Assembly: GCA_016165875.1 (NCBI GenBank)
Contig: JABBOT010000005.1
Span: 28,415,943-28,479,942 of the forward strand
DNA length: 64,000 nucleotides
Source of the DNA: Acanthopleura granulata
Lineage: Eukaryota; Mollusca; Polyplacophora; Chitonida; Chitonidae
Reading direction: 5' to 3'
Below, in pieces: positions 17,188-64,000 of the stretch. The notes beneath the pieces were generated by a model that was given only the letters and a program-made list of their open reading frames with translations, was not told the origin of the DNA and did not search any database. Within the stretch, counting starts at the first letter, position 1; each line of letters begins with the position of its first letter. The position numbers and the translations under genes are program-made.

Positions 17188-17289
17188 ATGGTACTTCTAC
17201 TGAGTGATGGCAGAACTGATTATGTCATTTTTACAACATTATGATACATATGGCAGACTTGTTGGTGTAACACAATATTATCTTCTACA

Positions 17290-17343
17290 TAACATAATAT
17301 GCTAAAATTCCATTCTCTGTTCAGAAAGCATGATATTATGTTA
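17290..17343. repeat. Short inverted repeat (hairpin)
   Basis: TAACATAATATGC at 17290 and GCATGATATTATGTTA at 17328 form a stem of about 13-15 bp around a 25-nt loop. The mirrored region near 63870 carries the same hairpin. Sequence just outside it differs more between the arms than the following kilobase does. Confidence 0.6.
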
Positions 17344-19059
17344 CACTCAACAGGTTGGTTTTTATAGTGTATAAGACTAAAACGATTCCAAGTTTGTCAA
17401 GCATTCACTTCGGTATATAAATTTAAATCCAGGCGACAAATCCGACATTGGTGTACCACTCATACAGCGGGGAATGGACGAGACAAGTCGATAATCCCAA
17501 GATCTGTGTCCAAAATAACAACAGTTAACGATCTACGTCTTCCGCTCTTCATGAATTAGTTAAACTAAAGCAATGAAGGAAGGATTTCTTTTGTCTTGCT
17601 TTTGACACCGATGCTTATTCATGATATATCGGGCTTAGCGGTGAGATTACTGACCAACTGTTCCGCCCAGCTGGTAAATATAAACCTGAATGTTTATAAA
17701 AAAGGTAAAATAATAAAAAGACTGGGTTACATATAGCCATGTGAGAAGGGGTCGTAGTGCTAAGCTAACCCTTCACGATTACTCCGTCTGATATGGCGGC
17801 CTTACCATCCTGATGTCTCCCAGACGCCTTCGCCTCACAGTTGATGGATGATATACTTTGGACATCCTCCATTCGTAGTCCGAAGGCCCTTTCTTCAGTT
17901 CCACGTCTTCTTAAATAAAAGCGCGTCATACTCAGTAAGAAACTGTGCTGGTACTAAAAGGACATAACTCGTACCCTTCCCGTCCCAGATGACTATAGGT
18001 TTTCTTTTTTCAACAAAATGGCTACCGATATCACCAGAGTCTATATGTTACCTACTGGATCTTGGGCGACATTAATACAGCGTCGGAACTGGACTTGAAG
18101 CAGCCGAAGACAAACGTGCCGACAGGGACATTAATATTGCATTTGTGATCGGAATAATTCAGCAAGTCCGTCTCCTCGCTGGACACACACACGGTAGACG
18201 GTCACGATTTGGATAATCAACTGTTTCCAATTCACTTACCTGAGCTATGACTCGCCATAGCCGAGTTCACCAGGCCTCAAGGAGATGTACAAAGACGATG
18301 CTAGTTGGAATTCAGCTCTGTCTGAATCGGCTGCAGAATTAGATCAGAGGGTTTTTTCAGATGACAAGTAAGGCCCGGTGTTTTTTCCTGACTTTGTTCA
18401 TACAGAGACTATATCGAAAATTTTGGCCAAGAAATTTATCATCACTTATTCAATGTGATTCTTGTGTTATTTTAAAATAGCGCGGATACTTACATTTCGA
18501 AAAATCTCTGCCTTCCGTGTTAACGTTCAAAGACAGAAATGAGGTTCGTAAATTTAAATAATGCTGCTCGCTTTATAATTCTCTTTTTTCCTCAGATTTT
18601 AGAATAATTGTAAGACTATGAGCAGCAGGGGTACAAGGGTGATCATTCCCGAAAGGCAATACTTCGAGCTACTCTTGGTAAATAGAGAAAATATGGTGTG
18701 ATTATATGACAATACGTTCCACATAGCACGTCAGTAGTGCGCGTTTTAAAAGTGATGTTAAACAGCAAGCACCTCAACAAATAAGATTGATTTGCAGTTT
18801 TAGTGTTAAAGTATCAGTCATATCTCAACACAACACAATATAGAGAGTAACGCAAATTTTACTTTTCTTGTTTTCGACATTTCTTTGTTTGATTCAGGTA
18901 TGCTTTCAATTCGTCCACTGGTATAATGTTACAAATAACTCGGCTTTAACAGAAAAGCTTTCACATAGTCAGACGAGAAATGGTTTCGACCGGTAATACT
19001 ACCAACATTGTGACAGTAAAATAATGTGGAGTCAAAGGACGGTGGTTTGGACAGTATAT

Positions 19060-19350
19060 CGGTCGGTTGGTCTATGGGCTTGTCGGCCTGTCGATCGACA
19101 TGCCTGTCGGTCTGTCAGTCTGTGAGTCGGCCTGTCGTTCATTCGATCGCTATGTCAGTTTATCGTTCAGTCTGTCAGTCCGTCGGTCGGTCCGCTTGTC
19201 TGTTTGAATGCCTACCTATCTTACAGTCTGTGGGTTGGACAGTCTGGCGGTTGGTATGTCGATCAGTTGTTACCTCCGTCGGTCCGTCGACCTGTCGTTT
19301 GGTCAGTCCGTTGGACACCCTTTGGGTTAGTCTGTCGGTCTTATTCTTCA
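19060..19350. repeat. GTCN-rich degenerate microsatellite
   Basis: Irregular tetranucleotide repeats of the GTCG/GTCT/GTCA type. Apparent Ser/Val/Cys-rich open frames on both strands are a by-product of the repeat. The mirrored copy is at 61836-62126. Confidence 0.8.
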
Positions 19351-19889
19351 CATCGTTGTTTTTAACATTGACCGGGTAAAATGAGTGCAAAATGACATCG
19401 AAGTTTTGTGGGACGCTGGTCTTCTTCGGCTAAATTGTGAGATACATGGCACTATAAATACAACGTTTTATTATCGCAAGTGTAACTGACAACCTCATAG
19501 TTTGTCTGCGGCCAACTGTCCACTTCAGACTGTGCGCTTCGGAGCAATCAGTCAGAATGTATCGCTTCAACAGCTTTGCAGTGTAACATGCCTAAGGGTG
19601 CGTACACACCAAAAGCTACTAACCGCGCCGCACCACCGAGTCGAGCCTAGCTGCAGAAATATCTGCTCTTTATTGTTACAAACCGTTTACACCAAAAGCA
19701 GCGGCGTCGCCACGCAGCTCGTCCACGGTTTGCTTCGAGCAGCGATAAATATCTGGGTATTTTCCGTAGCTCGTGGCTAGCCTTCGAACTGACCTACTTC
19801 CATGCTGGCTAAATTTAGCACATTACGCAACAAATACACAGTTGCTGGCCTACAGCTCAACTGAACGCACTACTGAGAAAACAGTAAAC

Positions 19890-22544
19890 ATGGATGATGA
19901 AAAAACCCTTCAGTTTATTTCTTTACTTCAAGATTATCCATCATTATGGAAAAAACAAAGTAAAGACTTCATGAACAGAGATGTGCGGAGAAAGAACTTT
20001 AAAGAGATTGCTGGACAAATGAATGTGACAGGTAATTTAAAACTAAATCAATCAGTCCATGCCCCACATGAGCATCTCGAAAATCGCAATTTCCCCCCGA
20101 CCCCCGTACAGGCTTACCCTTTTTATGAAAAAATATAGTGAATATTCTTACACTAAAGATGCCTAGACCTTAACTTGGCTTAAACAAGTTTCCAACAAGT
20201 AGGCCTAAATATAAAAGGAAAACTGAAAGAACACAAGGACATTCGCATTATTTAAGTTCGAAACCGCACGTGTGGCAGTTTTACATAATTAGAAATCTGT
20301 ACTTTGAAGGACAGCAAATTCGACGTTTAAACATGTTGGAGTCAAAGCTAAAAGCACCTATTGTCCGTTAAATATGTCTTGGCATTTATTGAAAAAGAAT
20401 TGAAAATTACGCCGCCTAAGTTGTAAATAAATAAATAAATAATGTCCGTCCGTCCGTCCGTCTGTCTGTCTCTATCATAATCTGTTTTTGTATCTCACTA
20501 CGACCTTCTCTATTTTGTAAGCCCCCCCCCCTTCTTTACATACACTAGCTGGTGACGGCTCTTTCCTTTGGTTTCCTTATCTCTTCCACTATCTTTTTTT
20601 CCTTTGTCAGATTCCTCAAAAACAGTAAAAGTGAAATATTGATTTCAACATGTAAATTAATAATGAAACTTTTCAAATTAATTTGCTGGTGGTGACACCA
20701 TTTTAGAGCACAGAGTTTTGCCAAGATAGTGCACCTGGTCCAACGAAAAAGTCACTCAGTTTTTGTCGTATCCACCTTGCGTACTGTCCAGGACGACCTC
20801 TGTTTATATTAACGTTTACCCTGTGCAATCTGCTCTCCTATCTCCACCGTCGACCCATTCTTCGACGTCTGTCTCGGAAGCAGATACGGTGTTTCCTTCT
20901 AGCGTTAATATTGCATTGTGCAGGACGACCGAAGCAAGAATAATACTCTCTGAAGTCTTGATGTCTGTAGCAATGACGGATCTGAGAACTCTCCATTTTG
21001 CTGCCAATAAACCAAAAGCACACTCAATGCATCTTCTGGCCCTTTAATGACGATAGTTATAGATTTGCATCTGTGTCGTGAGATTTCCGGAAAATGGTGT
21101 GAGTAGAAATTGCTTTAATGGATAGGCAGCGTCTCCTAATAAGAAGTAGGGAAGGTCTGCGCTTAAATCTGGCAAACTGCAAGTATCCATCGTATTGTTC
21201 TGAAAGAACGATTTTGTTTCAGATCGAGAAAAAACACCGCCATCACTTTCTTTTCCATACGCACCCACTTCGACCATAATGAATTTGAGATCCGAATCAG
21301 CAACTCCCTGCAGCACGAGTGAAAAGAAATGTTTATAATTTAAAAAGTTCGATCCAGAGTTTGCTGGCGCTTGAATGCGTACGTGTTTTCCATCTATAGC
21401 ACCAATTACGTTTGGAAAGTTACACTTTTCAAGGAATCCTTTGGCAGTTTTTTTTTAAACTTTCTGTTGTTGGTTTCTGCAAATAAATAGGGTTTAACCT
21501 TGTCCAAATCGATGTCAACGTTTCAGAAACGATACGACAAACAGTGGTCGTTCCAAGCCGATAAGAGTGTGCTAAGGACCGAAATGACATTCCTGTTGCC
21601 AAAAATATGTGGAGGAAAAAGATTTAGAATAACCATAGTGATATGACTCATCTTATAAGCTTATTTGTACTCTATTGTTCTTTTCTTATTTATCCCCAGA
21701 GGAGGATTGCAGGAAGAGGTTAAAACACCTTAAGGACAAGATGCGGGAGGTTTGCAGCAAATTGCCAAAGACTGCAAGTGGTCAGCCGGCTTTCCAGGCT
21801 GGTGAGGAAATAGTCAGGTGGCAGTATTATTAGTCCCTTCTCTTCATGAAGGATCAATTTCTCGGCCGAAAACTGAGTCGCTCATTCCATGAAAAATCAA
21901 CATATGATGCCACCAGCCAATCACCTGACGTGAACGGTGATGATGACGAGGAATCCTTATCTAGTCAGGGGGGTGTCGACACTACTGACAGTAACTATAC
22001 TACACCCAAGAGGCCACATGGAAGTGACAATTCTACACCAGTGGCGGCACCGAAGAGGCCTCATGAAAGTGGTGCTCAACGGCCATCTTCATCCAAAAAG
22101 GTGAGGCAAACGGAGCAATTTCTAGACATAGAAAGGGAGAAGCTGAACACCGTCAAACACCTAATGAGGGATCGTGAGCCAAAGGATGATTGGTGGGCAT
22201 ATGTTGACTATATAGTGCACGACCTGCGAATGATCCGAAATCCACGCCTTAAAATAAGTGTAAGAAACGGCATATCGAGGCTTGTGGGAGATACCATTAT
22301 TCAACAGCTAAAGAAGGATGAGCAGCATCAACAACAACAACATCAACAACAGCATCAACAACAACAGCATCAACAACAGCAACAACAGCATCAGCAACAA
22401 CAGCATCAACAACAACAGCATCAACAACATCAACACCTAAGTCAACAGCCTCCACGTGAAGAGCCGCCGCGACAGCAAGAACAAGGACAAGAAGACACTT
22501 ATAACACAATGGAAAATATGTCGTCTTTCAACTTCCTGTACTAA
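19890..22544 (+). pseudogene. Harbinger MADF/Myb-like DNA-binding protein, two exons, disrupted
   Basis: Exon 1 (19890 to about 20030) begins MDDEKTLQFISLLQDYPSLW and reads as the first half of a MADF (Myb/SANT-like) domain, ending at a GGTAATT donor. Exon 2 follows a TTATCCCCAG acceptor near 21701 and completes the MADF domain (EEDCRKRLKHLKDKMREVC). After an in-frame TAG near 21830 it continues through an acidic/serine linker, a BESS-like segment (VGDTIIQQLKKDE) and a long Gln/His tract (22318-22440) to 22544. In PIF/Harbinger elements this protein partners the nuclease for DNA binding and nuclear import. The in-frame stop makes this copy probably inactive. Confidence 0.75.
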
Positions 22545-22990
22545 ATTCATTACTTATCTTTTTCGAACATTTTGTTTTTTATGTGTTGAATTTGTTTTGA
22601 ATTTAATTAAACAAAAGTGACGATGAATTAACAAGTTGTGCTTTTTGTTGTTTTTGTCTTTGATATATTGTCCGTTGTTATTGCTACTATAATTGTTGTC
22701 CTCTGTTGTTTTTGTTTCCATTGAATGGCTATTGTTGCATACAGGAGGTCTACTTACCGAAGTGTTAAAGCCAGCCGTTCCTCTGGTGAAACGGGTTTGC
22801 GATAATTGGTTTCTTGTTTCTGCAAGTCCTCGGTGATCAAATCAAGTATGGCAGAGAATGTCTGAGGCAACATTCGGAAATGAGATTGAAAACGTTGTTC
22901 GTCTTGCTTTAAATCGGGAAACAAAAGATGGAATTCTCCACATGAATCCTGTTTGGCATTTATAGGATGAACCCACCATCTTCTCGTTTT
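20760..22990 (-). pseudogene. Harbinger DDE nuclease (HARBI1-like), disrupted
   Basis: Minus strand. An N-terminal exon at about 22990-22765 (INAKQDSCGEFHLLFPDLK) ends at a GTAAGT donor. The catalytic part lies at about 21610-20760 and shows the DDE_Tnp_4 residues: D in VIGAIDGKHVRI, D in YFLLGDAAYPLKQFLLTP, and E in RRCIECAFGLLAAKWR. Lesions are a frameshift in an A-run near 21445, a frameshift near 21160 and a TAA just before the catalytic Glu block near 21046. The reaction would be cut-and-paste transposition at TWA targets. The copy looks inactive. Confidence 0.8.
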
Positions 22991-23464
22991 CCAACAAAAG
23001 ACTCTTTGTTAGATATACTGATGGTGCCAATAAATGTAACAGGAACAACTTTCTTTCGTCTGACATGCTCGACACTTCTCATCAGGCAGCTGAATGATTA
23101 CTACTGCTACTAGCAGCTAGCTCACGGTTCAATGTGCTCTACGACATAGCGGCTTTTGGTGGGGACAGGCAAGCTCTCACTGACCCACTGGCGAGCAAGT
23201 TCCTAACCGTCGACTAGCCACGGAGGCTTTTGGTGTGAACACTTTAGCTCCGAGGCTCGCAAGGCTTGTAGCTCGCTCGGTGGTGCGGCGCGGTTAGTAG
23301 CTTTTGGTGTGTACGCACCCTAAGGGATGTTCGGAGAGGGGCAGGTTTACACGTAATATTGAATTAACAGTTACACATTAGGAGGGTTGATGAGGGGACA
23401 ACCACCGCCTGCAGCGCCCTCTTACAGCCAATACAGGCGGATCGATATCTCCTTACTACTATCA

Positions 23465-23710
23465 CGGAGGTCTAGTTGGTTAGCACGCTAGCGCAGCGTA
23501 ATTACCCAGAAGCCTTCCACCAATGCCGCCACTGTGAGTCCAGTTCATGCTGGCTTCCACTCCGGCGGTACATGGGAAGGTCTGCCAGCAACCTGCGGAT
23601 AGTCGTGGGTTTCCCCCGGGCTCTGCCTGGTTTCCTCCCACCATAATGTTAGCCGCCGTCGTATTCTTGAGCACGGCGTAAAACACAAATAAAATGAATA
23701 AATCAAATAA
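23465..23710 (+). repeat. tRNA-headed SINE
   Basis: Head GTTGGTTAGCACGCTAGCGC, body with TGGGAAGGTCTGCCAGCAAC and GGTTTCCCCCGGGC, and a tail with GTCGTATTCTTGAGCACGGC followed by an A-rich end. It lacks the ATAAGTGAAAT block present in the 38722-38965 copy. It is duplicated at 61190-61435 with the inverted arm. Confidence 0.8.
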
Positions 23711-24300
23711 TGCTGCCTCTGCAACGAGCAGGAATATCCCGTCATGATTGATAAGAAGAGGTTTTTTGCGTGACTTCCTTGTTCTACTTCTTGAACCCGA
23801 AGCACCCATTTTGGTTGACGGCTGGTTTATGAATGTGTACTTCCACGCCTTGATTCCTGTCTAAATATGTCCAAGGTGGCTTACCCCTTGAGTGAAACCA
23901 GCTTTTACATGTCCACGTGAAAAAGGACCACCGTGGGTAACCAATTCACCTCGGACTAACACCTGTGTTTTTTTCTTCCTTTTCATTTTTTACATGGGAT
24001 TTTTTTACTTACGTCTTACTAGCTGAAATCTGACCACTGCTTCCTTTTTTGTGCAACGAGGTCAGTTTTTCAGGTAAATACATGTCAAAAGCTAGAGTAA
24101 GATCCGGAGGTTTGGGCCATTAGGTTGGCACAACACACAAATCAGGCTGCTGTGAAAGCGATTATACTGCCCGATTTAAGGATTAAAAAAGTGACGTGGT
24201 AGTCAGCCATGCTCCCAAAACTCCAAGTACCTCGAGGTCACCGAACACAAAGATCACGCTAAAATGCCAAATGATAGGAAACGATTAAAAAGAGAAGGTG
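23711..24300. other. Outer boundary of the left Maverick, no gene recognised
   Basis: No ATPase-like or terminal-repeat sequence is seen here. The Maverick reading frames begin only at 24302, in the middle of the ATPase gene, so the element's outer end is missing or has been replaced somewhere in this stretch. A short open minus frame near 23960-23870 is unassigned. Confidence 0.5.
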
Positions 24301-24301
24301 A

Positions 24302-24466
24302 TCGTTCGGTCTGAAAAGCAGAAAAGAAGCCTTTAAAGACGCCACATCCGAACCTTACGGATATTTGCTTGTTGATTTCAAACAAACTACACCCGATCAT
24401 CTCCGTTTGCGTACGCATAGTTTTCCTGAAGATTCCCTGCAGTTTGTCTCCCTCCCCAAATCATAA
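24302..24466 (+). pseudogene. Packaging ATPase (FtsK/A32-like), C-terminal remnant
   Basis: About 54 codons remain, reading KEAFKDATSEPYGYLLVDFK then TTPDHLRLRTHSFPED and ending at a TAA at 24464. I recognise this as the C-terminus that closes the packaging ATPase of Maverick elements; this is family recall, not a search. The Walker A and B parts are missing, and upstream sequence is unrelated. The position just before the core-protein genes fits the usual order. The mirror copy is at 60434-60598. Confidence 0.65.
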
Positions 24467-24563
24467 AAATATGAACTTTCAGGGGGAATAACTCTCACAG
24501 GCATATGCAATAAAACCTCCCGACATATCACTTACTATCTCATTATGTAATTAGACACTGACC

Positions 24564-24905
24564 ATGTCAGCACGCTTACGCCGCTTCGCACCTTTGCTAA
24601 AACTTCTGGTCAGGAGTGACCGGAAGGTGAAGGACGCAATTCTTCGCGGACCTAATGCTGAATTTATTCGCTGTATTTGCACGTTATGTAAGAACATTTT
24701 AAATGGAAATATCCCATTGACACCAGCTCAGGAGGCCCGGTTACGTCCGCACAAGACACATCTACGTGCACTAGTAAACAAGCGCACCCCGCTTTATCGC
24801 AAACGGACCATTATACAGAAAGGTGGAATACCACCCCTCCTTCTGGGGGCCCTTCCGCTTGCGGCCTCTTTTCTAGATAATTTGTTTAGCGGCGGCCGTC
24901 GTTAA
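24564..24905 (+). CDS. Small basic virion/core protein of Maverick elements
   Basis: A 113-residue basic protein. The N-terminal third is Arg/Leu-rich (MSARLRRFAPLLKLLVRSDR), the middle contains a CICTLCKNIL segment and PLTPAQEARLRPHKTHLRAL, and the C-terminus is a hydrophobic glycine-containing stretch (GGIPPLLLGALPLAASF) ending in GGRR. Proteins of this build sit beside the capsid genes in many invertebrate Mavericks. A DNA-condensing or membrane-active, adenovirus pX/VI-like role is inferred only. The ORF is intact and its product is identical in the right copy (59995-60336). It ends 6 bp before the next gene. Confidence 0.8.
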   Translation: MSARLRRFAPLLKLLVRSDRKVKDAILRGPNAEFIRCICTLCKNILNGNIPLTPAQEARLRPHKTHLRALVNKRTPLYRKRTIIQKGGIPPLLLGALPLAASFLDNLFSGGRR

Positions 24906-24911
24906 GAAAAA

Positions 24912-25259
24912 ATGTCTCATATGAAGAAAATGACCCTAGTTGAACCTCGTTTGTTGGAAGGATTGCTTCGGCCCACCTCACCTTACCCTGTGCCGTCTAC
25001 TGTCAAACTCCTCAACACAATAGATGGAGATATGGAAAGAATTTTGAAGAATGTGGCATTGTCAAATGAAGACAAAATTCACCCGTACCAACAAGCCCTT
25101 CAAAGCTACTTGACATTTCACAACCAGTACCAGCAAAGTCTCAATGCCCCGCCGCTGGCTAAGCCAGCTACAACCCTACCTGTTCCTTCACCTGCTACAG
25201 CTGTACCCCCTCAAGCACTTGTGGCCGGACAAGAAAAGGAAAAGGGAAAAACAGATTGA
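24912..25259 (+). CDS. Maverick structural protein, second small ORF
   Basis: A 115-residue protein beginning MSHMKKMTLVEPRLLEGLLR, with a central helical region (about residues 35-75) and a Pro/Ala-rich tail ending QEKEKGKTD. This type regularly follows the preceding gene in Mavericks, and its function is unknown. It is identical in the right copy (59641-59988). After the TGA the same frame stays open for about 40 more codons of basic sequence, so the stop may be a nonsense mutation inside a longer gene (see 25260-25465). Confidence 0.75.
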   Translation: MSHMKKMTLVEPRLLEGLLRPTSPYPVPSTVKLLNTIDGDMERILKNVALSNEDKIHPYQQALQSYLTFHNQYQQSLNAPPLAKPATTLPVPSPATAVPPQALVAGQEKEKGKTD

Positions 25260-25465
25260 CGACATCAGCCAGAATGCATGTTGACGCTTCATAAACCAAA
25301 GGGGTCATCTCCAATTTCTCAGCATAAGAAGCGTAAATCAAAGACTAAACAACAGCTGAATGGGAACGACTACAGGAGGCACTAGGGTATAGTCCCACCC
25401 CAACCAAGACTCCATCTCGTCGTAATTCAAAGCCCAAACGTAAAATTACCAAACCTCTGCGGTAG
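25260..25465 (+). pseudogene. Basic C-terminal extension, probably part of the preceding gene
   Basis: This is in frame with the preceding ORF across its TGA. The sequence continues with SSPISQHKKRKSKTKQQ, then needs one frameshift near 25360 to continue as LQEALGYSPTPTKTPSRR and a Lys/Arg-rich end at the TAG of 25463. The same stop and frameshift occur in the right copy. It may be a separate short basic protein or the C-terminal third of a roughly 185-residue protein. Confidence 0.5.
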
Positions 25466-25495
25466 TCCCCTTATTAAAAACGCGGTTACCCACGC

Positions 25496-25502
25496 TATAA
25501 AG
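25496..25502 (+). promoter_or_regulatory. TATA-like box before penton-like gene
   Basis: TATAAAG lies 33 bp upstream of the ATG at 25535. It also overlaps a short open basic frame, so it may be coincidental. Confidence 0.3.
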
Positions 25503-25534
25503 TTAGTCGGACTCTGAGGCGTGGGAGAAACAGC

Positions 25535-26350
25535 ATGTTTTATATGACGTTACCGAGCAACAGCTCGAAGGACTATTTCCCAAATAATACATCAGCTAAT
25601 TACACAACTCAACTACCTAGGCCAATTCATCTCTCAGCTGACTGGGAGTGTGGTTTAGTGGAAATACAGTATCCGCGATTGTGGTCTAATGTCTCAGTTG
25701 GTGAGATCTGGTTTACGGTGCACAAGGGCGATCTCGTTCGTAACGAGCGAGTTGTATTACCCAAAGGATATTACCCGACACCGGAAGCTATCACCTCAGC
25801 CCTCAACGCCCAACTGATGAATAGCAATAGAGCTTTTCTTAGACCTAAAGCAGGTGAAATTGTGTTTGGCCATTATAGGGCTTCTGAAAAATATACACTG
25901 GAATTTAAATCACGCCAAACTGTAAGTTTTAGTCCACGCTTACGTGAAACGTTTGGTCTCACCCATGGGAATACGCAGATAACGGGAGAGGAAGAAAACA
26001 GATCACGCCAAACTGTAAGTTCTAGCCCGCACTTACTCGATGGGAATACGGAGAGAAAGAAAAGATCCACTTTGATTCGACTCAGGCGACACGGACGGTC
26101 CCCACCCTTTACCTCGTGTAGTAGGGGATGTATTAGCCCCACTACTCCGCACAGTAGCTGTTCGTGGGACGTCTGGAGATCATGTTAGCAAGTCCTTTTC
26201 ACGTATTAAGTATGTTCCTGTACTCAAGAAGAGTTTTTCGACCATTGAAATAGATATTAGGGATGACAGAGGTAATCCCGTCCCATTTATGAAGGGAAAG
26301 TGTTGGTAACACTTCATTTTCGAGAGAGGCGGAGTCTATCTCTTCTCTAA
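25535..26350 (+). pseudogene. Penton-like single-jelly-roll capsid protein, frameshifted
   Basis: Opens with MFYMTLPSNSSKDYFPNNTS, a hallmark start of the minor capsid/penton-like protein of Mavericks, and stays open for about 190 meaningful codons. An internal imperfect repeat (SRQTVSFSPRL and SRQTVSSSPHL) lies near residues 128-165. Near 26112 the left copy lacks 23 bp present on the right. The conserved C-terminal part (VVGDVLAPLLRTVAVRG through FSRIKYVPVLKKSF) continues in another frame to about 26308, and a last short segment is in a third frame. The role would be the icosahedral vertex capsomer, inferred from the family. Confidence 0.75.
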
Positions 26351-26399
26351 CAAGTGACAAAAAAATCCCCCCCCCCAAAAAAAAATTCAAAAAACTTGA

Positions 26400-26450
26400 C
26401 TCTGACCGCACGAGGATTCGAACCTGTGATCTTCCACTTGCTCATACAGG
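26400..26450 (-). other. tRNA-like T-arm remnant
   Basis: On the minus strand there is GGTTCGAATCC, a perfect RNA polymerase III B-box/T-loop, preceded by GATCACA and followed by TCGTGCGGTCA. No A-box or matching acceptor 5' strand was found, so this is not a tRNA gene. It sits exactly between the penton-like and pVI-like genes in both copies. Confidence 0.45.
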
Positions 26451-26924: not shown

Positions 26925-26943
26925 CACCCATATCCATCCTACC

Positions 26944-28267: not shown

Positions 28268-28284
28268 TTTCACCAATTAAACAA

Positions 28285-28350: not shown

Positions 28351-28358
28351 TGACGTCA
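28351..28358. promoter_or_regulatory. CRE-like TGACGTCA overlapping the protease start
   Basis: The palindrome TGACGTCA ends on the first base of the protease ATG. The same motif occurs twice in the element's terminal region. A regulatory role is an inference. Confidence 0.35.
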
Positions 28359-35735: not shown

Positions 35736-35739
35736 CTAT

Positions 35740-51160: not shown

Positions 51161-51164
51161 GGGA

Positions 51165-53282: not shown

Positions 53283-53326
<44 letters not shown>

Positions 53327-54867
53327 TCTGTGTGTGGACGCGGGTTCGAATCCAGGCAGGTTCAATGAATTTTTGTTTAAAACAATGTACATGCTTTATA
53401 GTTATATATATATATATATATGCTTGTATCATTGCAGTTCCAGGGATGTTACTGGCATTTCCATGGGTGTCATCTCAACTATACTTCAACAGGTGAGCTC
53501 CCCTATAACACTAGGCGTGGTCTTTCACCGGAAGAACTTCAGAACAAGACGAATGAGCACGGAGCATATTTCGAGCATCTCAACTTCCAGGTTGTGGAAA
53601 CATGGGAATGTTTTTTTCTTCAGCAAAAGCGGGCTGACCCTACCCTTCAAGCATTTCTCCGAAATTACTGTACTCCCCCACCAGTTCATCTTACTGAAGA
53701 TCAATTATTAAAATCAGTAAAAAAAATAGTAAAATTAGTAAAAACAACTGTATAGGTTTGTGGAATGTGACATTCATGTCCCCCAAGAATTATTATCAAC
53801 TTTTGCTGAATATCCGCCGATATTTAAAAACGCAAATGTCACTGTAGAAGATATCGGTCCGACTATGAAAGAATATGCCAAGGCCAATGATGACCCAGTC
53901 CCGTCGTACATTAATCGGAAGTATGTGTCGGACGAACATTCTCTTGGGCAGCCCTCTGCAAAGATGGTATTTGGCTCATGGACTGGTTGTAACTCGCGTG
54001 TGTTACCTGCTTTCCAGCATTTGCTGATCACGTGACTCAAGCACGTCCTCAAGGGGATGTAGATCCCAGCAAGGTGTTTTCGGGTAATTCTCGATATGGA
54101 AGGACAGTCACTAATCAAGATCGCCATGTGAATGTAAAAGTGTGCACGCTAGAGAAAGCTCGGAAATTGGTCAATTCAGACGCGCGTATTAACGTGGAGG
54201 CAATTGATGATGATACCTATGAGGTCACGTTCACTAAGAAACGGATCTCACATAATTTACCTTACAGATAGGGTGTATGGTATATCAGTATGGCAAACTC
54301 CGCATGCTGGAATTCTATTACGATTTCCTGGGAAAATATTTTCATTCCAGTGATTATCAACTCGTGGAGACAGATACAGATTCAGCATACATTGCATGAT
54401 CGGACCCTAATTGGGAATCCTTGGTTAAACCCGATCTGCGAGAAGCTTACGAGGCTGAGCGTGACCGCTGGTTACCTCGTCGGGATTATTATCAGCATTA
54501 CAAACGTACGCCTGGTCTGTTTAAAGTAGAATGAAGTGGAGATGGTATTATCGCTTTATGTTCGAAAACGTAGTACTGCTACGCTGGAGACAGTGGGGAT
54601 GGTGATAAATTTTCCTGCAAAGCAGTAAACCGTCACAGTGCTCAGAAGGATTTGTATCTCTCGGTGCTCCAGGAAGGACGAAGTGCAGCGGGAGTCAATC
54701 GTGGCATGCGTGTACATGAACATCAAATGTGTTCCTATACACAGCATAAGGACGCTTTCACGTATTTTTATGCTAAACGTAAGATTTTGCCTGATGGGGT
54801 AAGCACGACTTACCTGGATATTTTGATACATATGGAAATATATTTTAAGATTCTGAATATTTTGTAA
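51165..54867 (+). pseudogene. Protein-primed family B DNA polymerase (right copy), disrupted
   Basis: Collinear with the left copy. A deletion of about 0.46 kb at about 52008 removes the zinc-finger-like part and Exo I. A second deletion of about 0.19 kb at about 52236 removes Exo II. Motif A reads FDANALDL (Tyr to Asp) next to a small deletion. The intron is 53142-53437. Motif C TDTDS (54371-54385) is followed by the same in-frame TGA as on the left (54397). Private stops lie near 54532 and 54571. The C-terminal part ends at 54867 with AATAAA overlapping the stop. Confidence 0.87.
53142..53437 (+). other. Polymerase intron, right copy
   Basis: Donor CAG|GTAATG and acceptor ATTGCAG match the left intron. 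It is longer because of a TA expansion and an insert holding a B-box (GGTTCGAATCC) near 53343, probably a SINE scrap. Confidence 0.65.
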
Positions 54868-55149
54868 ATAAAACAAAGAAAACATGTTATTTTGGTGAGA
54901 TCTCAATTTTTATTAATCATTTGGTTCAATAAACAAGAACAAACAACTGGAATTAAACATGTCATCTCTTTTTAACAACACTCGCCAATGTATATATGCA
55001 TTGTTCTAATCAGCAAAAATACAGCCTCTGTGCAACACTATACTAACATATTCCTTGTTATAAGCATCTGTTTGTACAACAACAATAAACATGGAAGAAT
55101 AGATAAAAAAATGTCTGATTAACTGGTGATTTAATTCAGTTATGATTTA

Positions 55150-55680
55150 TTACAATCTTCGTAACAATGGACATCTATGTTTTGTAATCACCAAAGAAAG
55201 GTGGGTGGATACCGAACATTCTTTCGGCCCAGTCATAAACCAATAGATCATTGGTATAATCTTAGGTGGAGAATTAAATGTTTGCGTAATACAGTTCATT
55301 GTTCGTCCTCTCGCTCCAGGGAGCGCAAAATACAAACAATACTGACCGCACACATCGGTATTTAAGCATTGTATAGGAGGGTGAGTCGATTGCCAATGGT
55401 TCGTACTCCGATTTAGCCATGTCTCTACCGCCTTACGCCAGGGTGGAAGCGCATAAGAGTCAAAATAATATCCAGACAAGTGATGTGTGGTTTCCTCATA
55501 ATCTATATATAATGCATTCCAATGTATACCAGGTTTCGTACTGGGATCGGTGTTTAATATATATATAGCAGGTAGATGTGGCATTCGTGCAGGTAAATGA
55601 TTCCAAGGGAGCACACCTTTCACCAAGTCACGTGTATAAGGATCCGCTTGAAGACATTGTAATAATTGTTGGCTGTTCAT
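55150..55680 (-). CDS. Adenain-like cysteine protease (right copy)
   Basis: Intact 176 residues, identical to the left copy except for Thr99. Candidate His53, Asp74, Gln104 and Cys111 are all present. TGACGTCA again overlaps the ATG, and AATAAA overlaps the stop. Confidence 0.9.
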   Translation of the reverse strand: MNSQQLLQCLQADPYTRDLVKGVLPWNHLPARMPHLPAIYILNTDPSTKPGIHWNALYIDYEETTHHLSGYYFDSYALPPWRKAVETWLNRSTNHWQSTHPPIQCLNTDVCGQYCLYFALPGARGRTMNCITQTFNSPPKIIPMIYWFMTGPKECSVSTHLSLVITKHRCPLLRRL

Positions 55681-55770
55681 GACGTCATCTGTTAGAATTA
55701 TGAGGACCTGGTCGAGGGTGGAAGTTCAAATCCTGGAGTGGTCAATGTCGATTTTGTTTAATTGGTGAAA

Positions 55771-57933
55771 TCACACAAGACTGTACGAATCATCAATCTC
55801 AATGATAATTTGGAATTCGGCGTAGCAAATGATAGTAGTAGATTGAAGTAGAGGTTGGGAAAATCGCATTTCCAAGCGGAGATCACCCTTCTGACTGACG
55901 TTCAACTGTTGGTCATCGTGCTGGGGAGCGGTCAAATCAAAAGCGAACAGAGTGTACCCTGCTCCGAAATCGGTATATTTGATATCATTTCCGGCATGTA
56001 ACCCAACTTTACCCGTGGCAGCGAATAAGTTCATATAAGAACGGATGTAATTATGAGCTGGAAAATTTGGGGTGAGTGGCTTGGCTGGTATCTGACGCCG
56101 GTTCACGTTGTTACGAGGCACATGTCGTGATTACATGTGTCCGGGTTTATTAACCGCGTAAGTTTAAGGCCCACACAAGGTGATTAAATTCACGGTCGGG
56201 TTTAAGTTCGTTTGGCTTGGCTGATTGTCCACATGGGACAATGCTACATCATGGACCAAGCTGAAATTCCCACACATGTGTCAAAAATGGTTCTCGCCGT
56301 TGGTCCCCATTAATGTTACCCAAAGGAGGAAAGAGAGCACCTCCAGACGATACATTAAGTGAGATAACGCAGGCTTCAAAATTTACGACCGGTAATTTAG
56401 AAACAAAAGATTTACTCGTTCGCTGCTATATAAGCGAATCCCAAATTTCAGAGAAGCGGAAGTCTTTTGGCCACTCATACGCTACGTTACTGTGCTTCCT
56501 GATACCCCCGATCTAAGACTATAACTTCTCTCCTTTGGAGATACCCTCTGCTGTCGGACTTCACCAAATGCAACTGGGATTGACTTGTTTTGGCTGGCGG
56601 TCGCTCTCTCTCCACTTTGAACCAGGGACAGCGGCACATAGTAAGTATAAGTAGTAAGTATATATTAAAGAACTCCTTTCTTGTTATTTAACCCCTTGTC
56701 GTTGGAGTCACTTTGTCCACAGGTTTATCTATAAAACTATATAGTTTTATAAAGGTTACGGGTATAGTTAGTGGCAACCTCAGCGCACAGTTTCCACTCT
56801 GCACGTTGTGTTACCTAGTTGTGTCTGACAAGACTATATAGGCTCCATCGTGAGGGTCTCCCTAAGACGCTTCCACTCAAAACGCTTCCTCTACAAACTC
56901 TGCGCTCGGATCAAGTAGCCACACGAACCCTTACCCCGTATCAACGTGTAAGACGACGTAGTTTATGTTAAGAGGGTTGAATGCGAAGGGATTTTCATCA
57001 TATCGTCCGTTAAATGTCGTGTTTTGTATACACCCTATGACGAGACGCTGGGGAAGAGTGCCTAAAAATAGGTTTTGCTCATTCACTGTGGTATGTCCTA
57101 CACCTACGTTGAAATACTTGGTCAATACACGTCGAATCGGGTACTTGGCTGGGGCTTTCTCCAAGGCTTTAAAATGGCCTAGCAGAACACCTGGGGTGAC
57201 TGTGATTTTCCGTATAAACATTGTCACTTCCTCAAGGACTGTCTTGTAATCAGCCTCCTGTGCATCGTCTCCTTGTCCATGTCGGAGAGTTGATATAATT
57301 GCAAAGCTGTTTCCGCTCCTGGTCAAACGGACTCGAACCGTGACATTGTTTAACAAATAGCGATCTTGTTGAAACAAGTCACAATGTAATCTCCCCATCA
57401 TATTAATCGATCGACTTCCAACAGCCAAAACCCTTCGTCTGTGAAATCCGTCGTTTTGAATAGTTTTAGTCTCCATTTGTCGAGAAGTATCCTTATACCA
57501 TCCACTTCCTTTCAACCAAGTTCTTTCAGCTTCTTGCCCGTAGCTAAGTAAGGTTTCTATGTACGCACGGTACGGGTAGGCCTACATATTGGTTGGCGGA
57601 GTACTCAATTTATCTTTGATAGCGATGTCTACTTGCTGCCACAGGGAATGTAGCCACAAATTAACAGGTGCCGCGGCAGCATTCTCTGGCAAATCATCCC
57701 CGTTACCTTTCACTATTTTGGCTTTCACGTACAAGTAAGAGTTAGCCAAGTCCAAGTATTTGTCTCGATCTCCGTTGCTAATAAAAAATTCTACAGGTCC
57801 ACCGTCCACAATGCTGGCAGTAGGGTTGTAGGTATCCCATCGCCCTTCGTGTACACTTTTGAGTCGGCGGTAAAGTCCACAAATCAAATTCACTGTTCCC
57901 TGATGGGGCAGAATTTGGGTGCTGTAAAACCAT
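55771..57933 (-). pseudogene. Major capsid protein (right copy), split by solo LTR
   Basis: Same protein as 26944-28267, with the shared frameshift (near 57855) and shared TAG (57584-57582). The left-specific TAG near the start is a Trp codon here. An 835 bp solo LTR interrupts the gene at the equivalent of left position about 27935. Outside the insertion the remaining frame equals the left copy except for a few residues. Confidence 0.88.
56109..56943 (+). mobile_element. Solo LTR (Ty3/Gypsy-like) in the capsid gene
   Basis: 835 bp starting TGTTACGAGG and ending CCCCGTATCA, i.e. TG...CA, flanked by a 4 bp duplication ACGT (56105-56108 and 56944-56947). The left arm shows the single ACGT of the empty site. 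A TATA box (TATATAAG at 56427-56434) marks the plus strand as the LTR sense strand. No internal retroelement genes are present, so it is a solo LTR left by recombination. The Ty3/Gypsy label rests on the TGTTACGAG start and 4 bp duplication only. Confidence 0.8.
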
Positions 57934-57952
57934 GGTAGGATGGATATGGGTG

Positions 57953-58429
57953 TTATGCGAAAATATCTCTGGGGAGTCTCGCTGATCGCTTGCGGCCCGT
58001 GTGTGCTCCAACACGGCTTCTACGCTGAGTGATGAGGTGACGTGCAGCAGGGCTTTTTATACGGCGCCGGTGAACTGGTTTACCAGGTAGGCGTCGCCCT
58101 GCCCCAGGTGTAAATACACCGAGAATACGAGGGACTTCCCTCGCCAGCGCACGTTTAGCACTCGACGTTTACCTGCAGCCTTACTACGTTGTTTCAGGGC
58201 TTCCTTCGGTGACTTGCCGCGAAACAGCGTATCACCAGCAACCCCCAGAGCCGTCCCTAGCACCGTTTTTCCTATCAATGGGCACCAGAGGCCCTTTGAT
58301 AAGAGCACCTAGAACATTCCCTAATCCATGACCTCGTTGTGTCGGAGCCCCATGAAAGACAGGGAAATTACCGCCCCCAACCTGGTTGTAGTAGTACGTG
58401 GTGTAAGGTTGATGCGTATCTGACACCAT
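57953..58429 (-). pseudogene. pVI-like capsid protein (right copy), frameshifted
   Basis: Retains the ATG (58429) that is AGG in the left copy, followed by VSDTHQPYTTYYYNQVGGGN. The frameshift in the middle and the Arg-rich tail are as on the left. Confidence 0.6.
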
Positions 58430-58480
58430 GTATGAGGAAGTGGAAGATCACAGGTTCGAATCCTCGTGCGGTCAGAGTCA
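58430..58480 (+). other. tRNA-like T-arm remnant (right copy)
   Basis: Mirror of 26400-26450: GATCACA, GGTTCGAATCC, TCGTGCGGTCA. There is no A-box. Confidence 0.45.
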
Positions 58481-58526
58481 AGTTTTTTGAATTTTTTTTT
58501 TTGGGGGGGGGATTTTTTTGTCACTT

Positions 58527-59365
58527 GTTAGAGAAGAGATAGACTCCGCCTCTCTCGAAAATGAAGTGTTACCAACACTTTCCCTTCATAAATAGGACGG
58601 GATTACCTCTGTCATCCCTAATATCTATTTCAATGGTCGAAAAACTCTTCTTGAGTACAGGAACATACTTAATACGTGAAAAGGACTTGCTAACATGATC
58701 TCCAGACGTCCCACGAACAGCTACTGTGCGGAGTAGTGGGGCTAATACATCCCCTACTACACGAGGTTCGAGCACATCTGAATATATGTAAAGGGTGGGG
58801 ACCGTCCGTGTCGCCTGAGTCGAATCAAAGTGGATCTTTTCTTTCTCTCCGTATTCCCATCGAGTAAGTGCGGGCTAGAACTTACAGTTTGGCGTGATCT
58901 GTTTTCTTCCTCTCCCGTTATCTGCGTATTCCCATGGGTGAGACGAAACGTTTCACGTAAGCGTGGACTAAAACTTACAGTTTGGCGTGATTTAAATTCC
59001 AGTGTATATTTTTCAGAAGCCCTATAATGGCCAAACACAATTTCACCTGCTTTAGGTCTAAGAAAAGCTCTATTGCTATTCATCAGTTGGGCGTTGAGGG
59101 CTGAGGTGATAGCTTCCGGTGTCGGGTAATATCCTTTGGGTAATACAACTCGCTCGTTACGAACGAGATCGTCCTTGTGCACCGTAAACCAGATCTCACC
59201 AACTGAGACATTAGACCACAATCGCGGATACTGTATTTCCACTAAACCACACTCCCAGTCAGCTGAGAGATGAATTGGCCTAGGTAGTTGAGTTGTGTAA
59301 TTAGCTGATGTATTATTTGGGAAATAGTCCTTCGAGCTGTTGCTCGGTAACGTCATATAAAACAT
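58527..59365 (-). pseudogene. Penton-like capsid protein (right copy), frameshifted
   Basis: Same gene as 25535-26350. It contains 23 bp near 58770 that the left copy lacks; these read on in frame into EPRVVGDVLAPLLRTVAVRG, so the left copy has probably lost them. A frameshift upstream of this point still breaks the gene here. Confidence 0.75.
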
Positions 59366-59434
59366 GCTGTTTCTCCCACGCCTCAGAGTCCGACTAACTT
59401 TATAGCGTGGGTAACCGCGTTTTTAATAAGGGGA

Positions 59435-59640
59435 CTACCGCAGAGGTTTGGTAATTTTACGTTTGGGCTTTGAATTACGACGAGATGGAGTCTTGGTTGG
59501 GGTGGGACTATACCCTAGTGCCTCCTGTAGTCGTTCCCATTCAGCTGTTGTTTAGTCTTTGATTTACGCTTCTTATGCTGAGAAATTGGAGATGACCCCT
59601 TTGGTTTATGAAGCGTCAACATGCATTCTGGCTGATGTCG
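59435..59640 (-). pseudogene. Basic C-terminal extension (right copy)
   Basis: Mirror of 25260-25465, with the same stop and the same frameshift. Confidence 0.5.
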
Positions 59641-59988
59641 TCAATCTGTTTTTCCCTTTTCCTTTTCTTGTCCGGCCACAAGTGCTTGAGGGGGTACAGC
59701 TGTAGCAGGTGAAGGAACAGGTAGGGTTGTAGCTGGCTTAGCCAGCGGCGGGGCATTGAGACTTTGCTGGTACTGGTTGTGAAATGTCAAGTAGCTTTGA
59801 AGGGCTTGTTGGTACGGGTGAATTTTGTCTTCATTTGACAATGCCACATTCTTCAAAATTCTTTCCATATCTCCATCTATTGTGTTGAGGAGTTTGACAG
59901 TAGACGGCACAGGGTAAGGTGAGGTGGGCCGAAGCAATCCTTCCAACAAACGAGGTTCAACTAGGGTCATTTTCTTCATATGAGACAT
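59641..59988 (-). CDS. Maverick structural protein, second small ORF (right copy)
   Basis: 115 residues, identical to 24912-25259. It begins MSHMKKMTLVEPRLLEGLLR and has a Pro/Ala-rich tail. Function unknown. It lies 6 bp downstream of the core-protein gene. Confidence 0.75.
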   Translation of the reverse strand: MSHMKKMTLVEPRLLEGLLRPTSPYPVPSTVKLLNTIDGDMERILKNVALSNEDKIHPYQQALQSYLTFHNQYQQSLNAPPLAKPATTLPVPSPATAVPPQALVAGQEKEKGKTD

Positions 59989-59994
59989 TTTTTC

Positions 59995-60336
59995 TTAACG
60001 ACGGCCGCCGCTAAACAAATTATCTAGAAAAGAGGCCGCAAGCGGAAGGGCCCCCAGAAGGAGGGGTGGTATTCCACCTTTCTGTATAATGGTCCGTTTG
60101 CGATAAAGCGGGGTGCGCTTGTTTACTAGTGCACGTAGATGTGTCTTGTGCGGACGTAACCGGGCCTCCTGAGCTGGTGTCAATGGGATATTTCCATTTA
60201 AAATGTTCTTACATAACGTGCAAATACAGCGAATAAATTCAGCATTAGGTCCGCGAAGAATTGCGTCCTTCACCTTCCGGTCACTCCTGACCAGAAGTTT
60301 TAGCAAAGGTGCGAAGCGGCGTAAGCGTGCTGACAT
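59995..60336 (-). CDS. Small basic virion/core protein (right copy)
   Basis: 113 residues, identical to 24564-24905: basic N-terminus, CICTLCKNIL segment, and a hydrophobic Gly-containing C-terminus ending GGRR. Confidence 0.8.
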   Translation of the reverse strand: MSARLRRFAPLLKLLVRSDRKVKDAILRGPNAEFIRCICTLCKNILNGNIPLTPAQEARLRPHKTHLRALVNKRTPLYRKRTIIQKGGIPPLLLGALPLAASFLDNLFSGGRR

Positions 60337-60433
60337 GGTCAGTGTCTAATTACATAATGAGATAGTAAGTGATATGTCGGGAGGTTTTATTGCATATGCC
60401 TGTGAGAGTTATTCCCCCTGAAAGTTCATATTT

Positions 60434-60598
60434 TTATGATTTGGGGAGGGAGACAAACTGCAGGGAATCTTCAGGAAAACTATGCGTACGCAAACGGAGA
60501 TGATCGGGTGTAGTTTGTTTGAAATCAACAAGCAAATATCCGTAAGGTTCGGATGTGGCGTCTTTAAAGGCTTCTTTTCTGCTTTTCAGACCGAACGA
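60434..60598 (-). pseudogene. Packaging ATPase C-terminal remnant (right copy)
   Basis: Mirror of 24302-24466. Only about 54 codons of the C-terminus are present, with truncation at the same place as on the left. Confidence 0.65.
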
Positions 60599-61189
60599 TC
60601 ACCTTCTCTTTTTAATCGTTTCCTATCATTTGGCATTTTAGCGTGATCTTTGTGTTCGGTGACCTCGAGGTACCTGGAGTTTTGGGAGCATGGCTGACTA
60701 CCACGTCACATTTTTAATCCTTAAATCGGGCAGTATAATCGCTTTCACAGCAGCCTGATTTGTGTGTTGTGCCAACCTAATGGCCCAAACCTCCGGATCT
60801 TACTCTAGCTTTTGACATGTATTTACCTGAAAAACTGACCTCGTTGCACAAAAAAGGAAGCAGTGGTCAGATTTCAGCTAGTAAGACGTAAGTAAAAAAA
60901 TCCCATGTAAAAAATGAAAAGGAAGAAAAAAACACAGGTGTTAGTCCGAGGTGAATTGGTTACCCACGGTGGTCCTTATTCACGTGGACATGTAAAAGCT
61001 GGTTTCACTCAAGGGGTAAGCCACCTTGGACATATTTAGACAGGAATCAAGGCGTGGAAGTACACATGCATAAACCAGCCGTCAACCAAAATGGGTGCTT
61101 CGGGTTCAGGAAGTAGAACAAGGAAGTCACGCAAAAAACCTCTTCTTATCAATCATGACGGGATATTCCTGCTCGTTGCAGAGGCAGCA

Positions 61190-61435
61190 TTATTTGATTT
61201 ATTCATTTTATTTGTGTTTTACGCCGTGCTCAAGAATACGACGGCGGCTAACATTATGGTGGGAGGAAACCAGGCAGAGCCCGGGGGAAACCCACGACTA
61301 TCCGCAGGTTGCTGGCAGACCTTCCCATGTACCGCCGGAGTGGAAGCCAGCATGAACTGGACTCACAGTGGCGGCATTGGTGGAAGGCTTCTGGGTAATT
61401 ACGCTGCGCTAGCGTGCTAACCAACTAGACCTCCG
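61190..61435 (-). repeat. tRNA-headed SINE (right arm)
   Basis: Mirror of 23465-23710, present in both arms and therefore older than the arm duplication. Confidence 0.8.
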
Positions 61436-61579
61436 TGATAGTAGTAAGGAGATATCGATCCGCCTGTATTGGATGTAAGAGGGCGCTGCAGGCGGTGGTT
61501 GTCCCCTCATCAACCCTCCTAATGTGTAATTCAGTGTTACTGTTAATTCAATATTACGTGTAAACCTGCCCCTCTTCGA

Positions 61580-61598
61580 ACATCCCTTAGGCATGTTA
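61580..61598. other. Empty Harbinger target site
   Basis: AACATCCCTTAGGCATGTT is the uninterrupted version of the sequence flanking the left-arm Harbinger element, with a single TTA/TAA. Confidence 0.9.
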
Positions 61599-61835
61599 CA
61601 CTGCAAAGCTGTTGAAGCTTTGCGATACATTCTGACTGATGCTCCGAAGCGCACAGTCTGAAGTGGACAGTTGGCCGCAGACAAACTATGAGGTTGTCAG
61701 TTACACTTGCGATAATAAAACGTTGTATTTATAGTGCCATGTATCTCACAATTTAGCCGAAGAAGACCAGCGTCCCACAAAACTTCGATGTCATTTTGCA
61801 CTCATTTTACCCGGTCAATGTTAAAAACAACGATG

Positions 61836-62126
61836 TGAAGAATAAGAGCGACAGACTAACCCAAAGGGTGTCCAACGGACTGACCAAACGACAGGTCGAC
61901 GGACCGACGGAGGTAACAACTGATCGACATACCAACCGCCAGACTGTCCGACCCACAGACTGTAAGATAGGTAGGCATTCAAACAGACAGGCGGACCGAC
62001 CGACGGACTGACAGACTGAACGATAAACTGACATAGCGATCGAATGAACGACAGGCCGACTCACAGACTGACAGACCGACAGGCATGCCGATCGACAGGC
62101 CGACAAGCCCATAGACCAACCGACCG
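61836..62126. repeat. GTCN-rich degenerate microsatellite (right arm)
   Basis: Mirror of 19060-19350, with scattered substitutions. Confidence 0.8.
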
Positions 62127-62129
62127 ATA

Positions 62130-64000
62130 TACTGTCCAAACCACCGTCCTTTGACTCCACATTATTTTACTGTCACAATGTTGGTAGTATTACCGGTCGA
62201 AACCATTTCTCGTCTGACTATGTGAAAGCTTTTCTGTTAAAGCCGAGTTATTTGTAACATTATACCAGTGAACGAATTGAAAGCATACCTGAATCAAACA
62301 AAGAAATGTCGAAAACAAGAAAAGCAAAATTTGCGTTCCTCTCTATATTGTGTTGTGTTGAGATATGACTGATACTTTAACACTAAAACTGCAAATCAAT
62401 CTTATTTGTTGAGGTGCTTGCTGTTTAACATCACTTTTAAAACGCGCACTACTGACGTGCTATGTGGAACGTATTGTCATATAATCACACCATATTTTCT
62501 CTATTTACCAAGAGTAGCTCGAAGTATTGCCTTTCGGGAATGATCACCCTTGTACCCCTGCTGCTCATAGTCTTACAATTATTCTAAAATCTAAGGAAAA
62601 AAGAGAATTATAAAGCGAGCAGCATTATTTAAATTTACGAACCTCATTTCTGATTTTGAACGTTAACACGGAAGGCAGAGATTTTACGAAATGTAAGTAT
62701 CCGCGCTATTTTAAAATAACACAAGAAACACATTGAATAAGTGATGATAAATTTCTTGGCCAAAATTTTCGATATAGTCTCTGTATGAACAAAGTCAGGA
62801 AAAAACACCGGACCTTACTTGTCATCTGAAAAAACCCTCTGATCTAATTCTGCAGCCGATTCAGACAGAGCTGAATTCCAACTAGCATCGTCTTTGTACA
62901 TCTCCTTGACGCCTGGTGAACTCGGCTATGGCGAGTCATAGCTCAGGTAAGTGAATTGGAAACAGTTGATTATCCAAATCGTGACCGTCTACCGTGTGTG
63001 TGTCCAGCGAGGAGACGGACTTGCTGAATTATTCCGATCACAAATGCAATATTAATGTCCCTGTCGGCACGTTTGTCTTCGGCTGCTTCATGTCCAGTTC
63101 CGATGCTGTATTAATGTCGCTCAAGATCCAGTAGGTAACATATAGACTCTGGTGATATCGGTAGCCATTTTATTGAAAAAAGAAAACCTATAGTCATCTG
63201 GGACGGGAAGGATACGAGTTATGTCCTTTTCGTACCAGCACAGTTTCTTACTGAGTATGACGCGCTTTTATTTAAGAAGACGTGGAACTGAAGAAAGGGC
63301 CTTCGGACTACGAATGGAGGATGTCCAAAGTATATCATCCATCAACTGTGAGACGAAGGCGTCTGGGAGATATCAGGATGGTAAGGCCGCCATATCAGAC
63401 GGAGTAATCGTGAAGGGTTAGCTGAGCACTACGACCCTTTCTCATACGGCTATATGTAACCCAGTCTTTTTATTATTTTACCTTTTTTATAAACATTCAG
63501 GTTTATATTTACCAGCTGGGCGGAACAGTTGGTCAGTAATCTCACCGCTAAGCCGGATATATCATGAATAAGCCTCGGTGTCAAAAGCAAGGTAAAAGAA
63601 ATCCTTCCTTCATTGCTTTAGTTTAACTAATTCATGAAGAGCGGAAGACGTAGATCGTTAACTGTTGTTATTTTGGACACAGATCTTGGGATTATCGACT
63701 TGTCTCGTCCATTCCCCGCTGTATGAGTGGTACACCAATGTCGGATTTGTCGCCTGGATTTAAATTTATATACCGAAGTGAATGCTTGACAAACTTGGAA
63801 TCGTTTTAGTCTTATACACTATAAAAACCAACCTGCTGAGTGTAACATAATATCATGCTTTCTGAACAGAGAATGGAATTTTAGCATAATATTATGTTAC
63901 GTAGAACATAATATTGTGTTACACCAAAAAGTCTGACATATGTAACATAAGGTTGTAAAAATGACATGATCAGTTCTGCCATCACTCAGTAGAAGTACCA
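62130..64000. other. Right outer flank, no gene recognised
   Basis: Mirrors 17188-19056. A 66-codon plus frame (63221-63421) is interrupted by a stop in the left counterpart, so it is probably not coding. The arm homology runs to the window edge. Confidence 0.5.

Follow-up and report, generated by a model that had tools for sequence, protein, structure and literature searches.

Two inverted copies of a Maverick/Polinton element (hereafter Maverick), a giant virus-like element, lie in a stretch of 64,000 nucleotides from the chiton Acanthopleura granulata (GenBank assembly GCA_016165875.1, contig JABBOT010000005.1, forward-strand positions 28,415,943 to 28,479,942; this whole stretch is the window, and its coordinates are also used for sequence beyond its edges). 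As assembled, the structure is a bounded inverted duplication of ~10 kb, composed of a Maverick half and 4.7 kb of flank, and the divergence between its arms changes abruptly within the polymerase gene. The duplication was probably made by homology-primed repair of a broken right Maverick, with copying outward from the left Maverick. The features on which this interpretation draws are as follows.

15884 to 29735, + strand: outer arm on the left side of the duplication; 13.9 kb, or 10.1 kb without a Harbinger insertion; collinear with 65548-54303 on the other strand
54303 to 64000, - strand: right outer arm; extends past the window to 65548
15884 to 24323, + strand: non-Maverick flank included in the duplication; 67 of 4,698 aligned positions (4.7 kb) differing
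24324 to 37212, no strand: left Maverick, without its integrase end; terminates at 37212 on the polymerase side
47733 to 60576, no strand: right Maverick, putative hybrid; 47733-54302 (inner part) its own, 54303-60576 (outer part) resembling the left copy
29713 to 29745, + strand: identity switch in the left Maverick, within the polymerase gene; 2-unit support interval of 33 bp; right counterpart at ~54303|54302
37202 to 37212, - strand: left-copy Maverick terminus AGTAGTATACT, exact match
47733 to 47743, + strand: right-copy Maverick terminus AGTAGTATACT, exact match; flank unrelated to that of the left copy
37213 to 47732, no strand: spacer between the Maverick termini, unduplicated in the window; 10.5 kb

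A stepwise change in identity between the arms

Comparison by BLAST and by base-by-base MAFFT alignment revealed an inverted repeat between window 16988-37500 and the reverse complement of 47401-64000. A change-point scan over 13,719 aligned positions (left-copy segments 33459-35004 and 36328-36403, where the arms align poorly, were dropped beforehand) placed the best single change point at 29735|29736 on the left, equivalent to 54303|54302 on the right, with a log-likelihood ratio of 278 (maximum 10.6 in 2,000 shuffles of positions and 106 in 2,000 shuffles of 200-bp blocks). Outside this switch 73 of 8,818 positions differ (0.83%), and inside it 431 of 4,901 (8.8%), with 55 differences in the 310 positions of the first inner segment. 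An earlier, sequence-only reading of the window had described a giant inverted repeat with two levels of identity and about 9 differences per 100 bp inside the switch, both of which these measurements bear out; its figure for positions further out, 1 difference in 290, applies only to parts of the Maverick half, and the outer arms overall are not uniform.

Of nine transition widths tried, a step had the best likelihood, with ramps of 20 and 50 bp at most 0.5 log units behind and ramps of 100, 400 and 1,600 bp losing 1.6, 5.1 and 19.6 log units, respectively, so the change in identity is stepwise. The 156 positions directly before the first inner difference (29580-29735) are identical, which at the inner rate has a probability of 6 × 10−7; the switch itself is thus narrow. 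The sequence-only reading, which had named a gradual change as its own refutation test, was therefore right to place an abrupt one inside the polymerase gene. Within the 8.8% region, a stretch of 228 bp (31906-32133 with 52008-52235), bordered by deletions in the right copy, is 97.4% identical and is possibly a short conversion tract.

Two Maverick insertions, one duplicated flank

An AGTAGT terminus is present at the inner end of each Maverick, and the outer ends of both copies are missing. When one mismatch was allowed, 1.2 matches to AGTAGTATACT per window were expected by chance and two or more occurred in 31 of 100 shuffles; of greater weight than the motif count is that both termini sit exactly where homology between the copies ends. 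Because homology stops at both termini and the flanks beyond them differ, the two Mavericks represent separate insertions, in keeping with the earlier proposal that two older inverted Mavericks served as the homology. Vertebrate Mavericks mostly have a doubled AGT at one end, a doubled ACT at the other and 6-bp duplications of the target (PMC8097293). The spacer had no Pfam match at E ≤ 0.01 in any of six frames.

At their other side, both arms share a truncation of the Maverick at 24324 and the same 4.7-kb non-Maverick flank, so both derive from one locus. L011 and L026, the two fetched relatives that cover the integrase-side end, both match the arms only from 24324; beyond the equivalent point one of them, a neighbouring relative (75-90% alike in BLAST pieces), encodes an rve integrase (E = 4 × 10−9). 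None was found in 60300-64000, and the integrase end is missing from both window copies. That one outer arm plus flank was copied onto the other, as previously proposed, thus apparently stands.

The duplication extends past the edge of the window. The start of the left arm, earlier put at 17188, is merely where the window cuts the right arm: the continuation of the right arm matches window 17188-15884, carries a 247-bp insert and loses homology at 65548. Over the full outer arms, 95 of 10,110 aligned positions differ. We compared the surroundings as twenty 10-kb stretches on both sides (one of them half N), through which a single 31-Mb contig runs. Collinear homology past 15884 and 65548 was not seen to resume between window -99,999 to 16,063 and 65,124 to 164,000; among the 40 matches listed between the two surroundings were the last 180 bp of the arm and otherwise repeats at 76-91% identity, and the sequences directly beyond 15884 and 65548 are unrelated to each other. 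The lost outer half of the right Maverick was sought at 65549-74000, where the matches found were short (73.6-73.8 kb) and to stretches with the ends of the next Maverick.

Comparison with other Maverick copies of the genome

A 2-kb piece of the right Maverick had at least 45 match rows in the 606.5-Mb assembly (87 contigs), a lower bound given that 40 of 231 candidates were scored. Eight further copies (9 of the 43 rows other than the two studied here) were compared, together with a divergent neighbour, L010, from outside the row list. Against seven of these copies, the inner pieces differ by 7.2-7.8% (left) and 8.5-9.2% (right), and by 8.4% from each other; the outer pieces differ by 6.2-7.1% from the same seven copies and by 0.6% from each other. 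The outer pieces differ by 7.3-7.7% from L030, which was compared for the outer piece only, and by 14-18% from L010. Such a contrast between inner and outer parts within one pair, together with a shared flank, requires an event.

The inner pieces share 16 variants found in no other copy compared, one of them a stop codon (window 31577 and 52376), and may be close relatives or may once have been partly converted. Descent of both inner halves from a single segmental duplication was set aside because their flanks differ, a rejection tempered by the 16 exclusive variants and more so by a further 16 that only the right inner piece and L010 have in common (three are confined to the left piece and L010). 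The 16 variants common to the right piece and L010 are spread along the piece and not clustered, and a patch from a third copy beside the switch was therefore rejected.

The same copies served to polarize the differences between the arms. Of the 28 in the outer half of the Maverick, 19 are right-derived, 7 left-derived and 2 ambiguous (P = 0.029). All eleven in 27286-29504 are right-derived, in a stretch picked after the data had been seen, and six of the seven left-derived ones fall within 26454-27242. In a tree of a 1.8-kb outer piece, the terminal branch is 0.0005 for the left copy and 0.0051 for the right; assuming even decay, the outer stem agrees more closely with the inner branch of the left copy (z = 1.4) than with that of the right copy (z = 2.8). 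These results favour, weakly and without proof, the left copy as donor and the right copy as the hybrid.

A candidate mechanism and its rivals

In the sequence of events that we propose, a break would have arisen in the right Maverick, and the broken end would have invaded, or annealed with, the left copy (~91% alike). Synthesis outward would then have copied ~10 kb, comprising the rest of the left Maverick and its flank, before a join lacking homology connected the new end to the far side, with loss of the right Maverick's own outer half. Either break-induced replication or long-tract gap repair, with end joining to close it, could yield such a product. Later conversion between the arms probably homogenized 18594-29735 again. 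A Harbinger element then likely inserted into the left arm and a long terminal repeat (LTR) element into the right arm, where it would since have collapsed to a solo LTR. A more specific version, in which a germline break was repaired from an inverted Maverick diverged by 8-9% and the copied arm keeps an excess of mutations from error-prone synthesis, is offered tentatively and may well be wrong.

Several observations weigh against repair by copying from the left Maverick. First, the divergence of the outer arms is uneven in a manner that a single event does not predict: 53 of 2,697 positions differ in 15884-18593 (1.97%) and 42 of 7,413 in 18594-29735 (0.57%), a ~3.5-fold contrast. A second change point at 18594 gains 18 log units, giving three divergence levels in all. 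Second, differences are clustered within the outer arms, with an index of dispersion of 2.49 where 0.99 is expected and no value as high in 5,000 simulations. Third, the far junction has no informative microhomology. Fourth, the right-derived excess is modest, and several sites are polarized by one or two relatives. Fifth, close Mavericks are not rare in this genome: L003-L008 form a younger group with mutual differences of 0.8-3.7% (inner) and 1.1-3.9% (outer). The duplication consequently rests on the shared flank and truncation, and not on the 0.6% between the outer pieces.

The two divergence levels along the outer arms speak against a single uniform event, which was therefore set aside. 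Of the single recent copying event proposed by the sequence-only reading, the copying fits and the singleness does not, as the contrast between far flank and near arm demands later conversion, a second step or a regional difference in mutation rate. The same unevenness could be accommodated by an older inverted duplication (reaching back to at least the 2% of the far flank) that was kept alike by gene conversion, with 29735 then marking the end of a later tract and not the original junction. The three divergence levels with their change point at 18594, the clusters of differences in the outer arms and the 228-bp stretch in the inner arms would all suit such a history. The inner ends, however, keep two different insertion sites, which already call for a homologous join within the Maverick; that a conversion tract should happen to end at exactly that point has to be assumed in addition. 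We consider this explanation unlikely.

Less likely still is an inversion heterozygote, in which exchange between the Mavericks inverted the spacer in one haplotype and the assembler crossed haplotypes via the unphased spacer, leaving alleles as the two arms. This would account for the hybrid Maverick and for arm differences at an allelic level: heterozygosity is given as about 1 to 4.1% in chitons (PMC12005716) and as 1.73%, with many hemizygous stretches, in a mussel (PMC7653742), and inversions generated by transposable elements carry chimeric copies (PMC2775673, PMC3573991). Yet one contig runs through, and alleles should run on, whereas homology stops at 15884 / 65548 and was not seen to resume in ~100 kb on each side. 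The sequence-only reading had offered alleles misjoined through the inverted Mavericks as its alternative; the bounded far end, with unrelated sequence beyond it, argues against this, as an allelic walk should continue, and makes it less likely now than when it was raised. Simple misassembly, in which an allelic piece of left-flank sequence was chimerically attached within the Maverick, is very improbable: the repetitiveness of Mavericks would invite it, but two false joins would be required, one of which lacks homology, the right arm has insertions and mutations of its own, and the few small indels between the arms (8 in 17189-29735, 5 of them ≤10 bp) suggest an accurate consensus.

Relation to known rearrangements

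The type of mechanism is already known; the new part is the Maverick as its substrate. Among human inverted duplications, homologous hybrid repeats of long or short interspersed nuclear elements (LINEs or SINEs, the latter Alu) were reported at 3 of 21 sequenced junctions, with spacers of 766-70,466 bp (PMC3907307). Template switching and templated insertions are known features of replication restart (PMC10482687), and inverted repeats that are up to 25% divergent and 30 kb apart rearrange in a yeast mutant in which long single-stranded DNA is present (PMC10164571). The chiton structure resembles known repeat-mediated inverted duplications (PMC3907307, PMC10164571, PMC10622511) in its unduplicated spacer between inverted arms (here within the window and ~100 kb on each side) and in a hybrid repeat, composed of two diverged inverted repeats, that holds the junction (PMC3907307). 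It differs in that theirs involve Alu or LINE repeats and are mostly large with terminal deletions, whereas Mavericks and a ~10-kb tract that ends internally are involved here.

Partial parallels also come from inversions. The Galileo inversions of Drosophila buzzatii (PMC2775673, PMC3573991) similarly carry a chimeric element of two well-defined segments from ectopic exchange, but the described outcome is an inversion with exchanged target duplications, unlike the bounded duplicated segment seen here; a reciprocal hybrid and outer target duplications are absent from the window. In cod (PMC12368964), Mavericks lie at rearrangement breakpoints and ectopic recombination is proposed; what is described there is enrichment at the breakpoints of one inversion, and the passages considered resolve no hybrid Maverick. 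Among the titles and abstract openings listed for Mavericks/Polintons with gene conversion, ectopic or non-allelic homologous recombination or inversion, we found no hybrid Maverick at a duplication junction.

Intact vertebrate Mavericks are 12.7-24.6 kb long (PMC8097293). As Mavericks are long and one piece has tens of match rows in this genome, ectopic repair can draw on far more homology in them than in repeats of Alu or LINE size. With its switch pinned, its tract bounded and many family copies at hand for polarization, such a hybrid would allow measurement of how long the tract is, in which direction it was copied and what mutation load it carries in a natural germline event. If the proposed history is true, giant virus-like elements would act as homeologous primers of segmental inverted duplication, and such paired elements would rebuild chromosomes through break repair.

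Inverted Mavericks were also seen on contig C12, where a 53-kb region holds five Maverick matches on alternating strands. The stretches between two of the inverted pairs, 18174400-18182900 (L031) and 18206950-18215500 (L032), share 99.4% identity across 8.5 kb, and in each the AGTAGTATAC terminus of one Maverick adjoins the interrupted polymerase of the other. As assembled, an inverted Maverick pair is thus itself duplicated at a distance of ~32.6 kb.

Gene content and probable later insertions

The remaining features of the window comprise insertions found in one arm only and remnants of Maverick genes.

19592 to 23319, no strand: PIF/Harbinger-like insertion, left arm only; inverted ends of ~60 bp, TAA duplicated, DDE_Tnp_4 and MADF pieces
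56109 to 56947, + strand: putative solo LTR, right arm only; 839 bp, TG...CA ends, ACGT duplicated
26858 to 28267, + strand: major capsid protein gene with an in-frame stop; its homologue P0018 has the double jelly-roll PF21738
28313 to 28888, + strand: adenovirus-type protease, weak match; Peptidase_C5, E = 0.006
29216 to 33187, - strand: broken polymerase B gene, left copy; relative P0242, 1258 aa, PF03175
51459 to 54822, + strand: broken polymerase B gene, right copy; large deletions

The site of the Harbinger-like insertion is empty and clean in the right arm, and both this and the LTR-like insertion likely postdate the copying. A tRNA-like element, presumably a SINE, is found at 23474-23709 and 38736-38963, with many partial copies in neighbouring stretches. 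The window had no Rfam match at gathering scores and no tRNA.

Of the genes, the capsid piece itself had no Pfam match; it is homologous over its whole length to P0018, which matches PF21738 (E = 1.5 × 10−7), and is on that basis assigned to the double jelly-roll major capsid proteins of Mavericks/Polintons. It has 659 homologues at E ≤ 0.001, the nearest named one among the 120 matches listed being from Liolophura sinensis (58% identity), and no relatives in viral_contigs. The candidate protease scores 16.7 bits (Pfam cut-off 21.3), and a PDB search was likewise weak. One piece of the polymerase is 58% identical to P0242, which matches PF03175 (E = 9 × 10−9); the enzyme is accordingly classed as type B, as in Mavericks/Polintons, with protein priming predicted only. 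Between the inner polymerase pieces, the ratio of nonsynonymous to synonymous divergence (dN/dS) is 0.62 over 821 codons (stops dropped), a value between constraint and neutrality that decides nothing. For a packaging ATPase, identifiable in 83% of Polintons (PMC4028283), the left copy was scanned at 33400-37214 (six frames) and 28889-33502 (three minus frames), with no Pfam match at E ≤ 0.01. The window copies are like described Mavericks/Polintons (PMC8097293, PMC4028283) in their type B polymerase, double jelly-roll capsid family, capsid and polymerase on opposite strands and, at the inner ends, (AGT)2 termini, and unlike intact ones in that both are broken and lack the integrase end, with no ATPase in the scanned parts of the left copy.

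Insertions of 173 and 296 bp, located at one place of the polymerase in the two copies, were considered as a lesion common to both copies and rejected, as their GT...AG ends predict an intron (30636-30808 and 53139-53434, differing in AT-repeat length); the open reading frames of intact vertebrate Mavericks are described as intronless (PMC8097293). Residues 761-845 of P0242, corresponding to window ~30636-30808, resemble the Vsr mismatch endonuclease (E = 0.0018), and P0247 is labelled Vsr at its source. Finally, a third Maverick lies at ~73.6-91.7 kb in window coordinates (L009-L011), in the same orientation as the right copy, with inverted ends, an rve integrase and a PC4-like match just below the cut-off.

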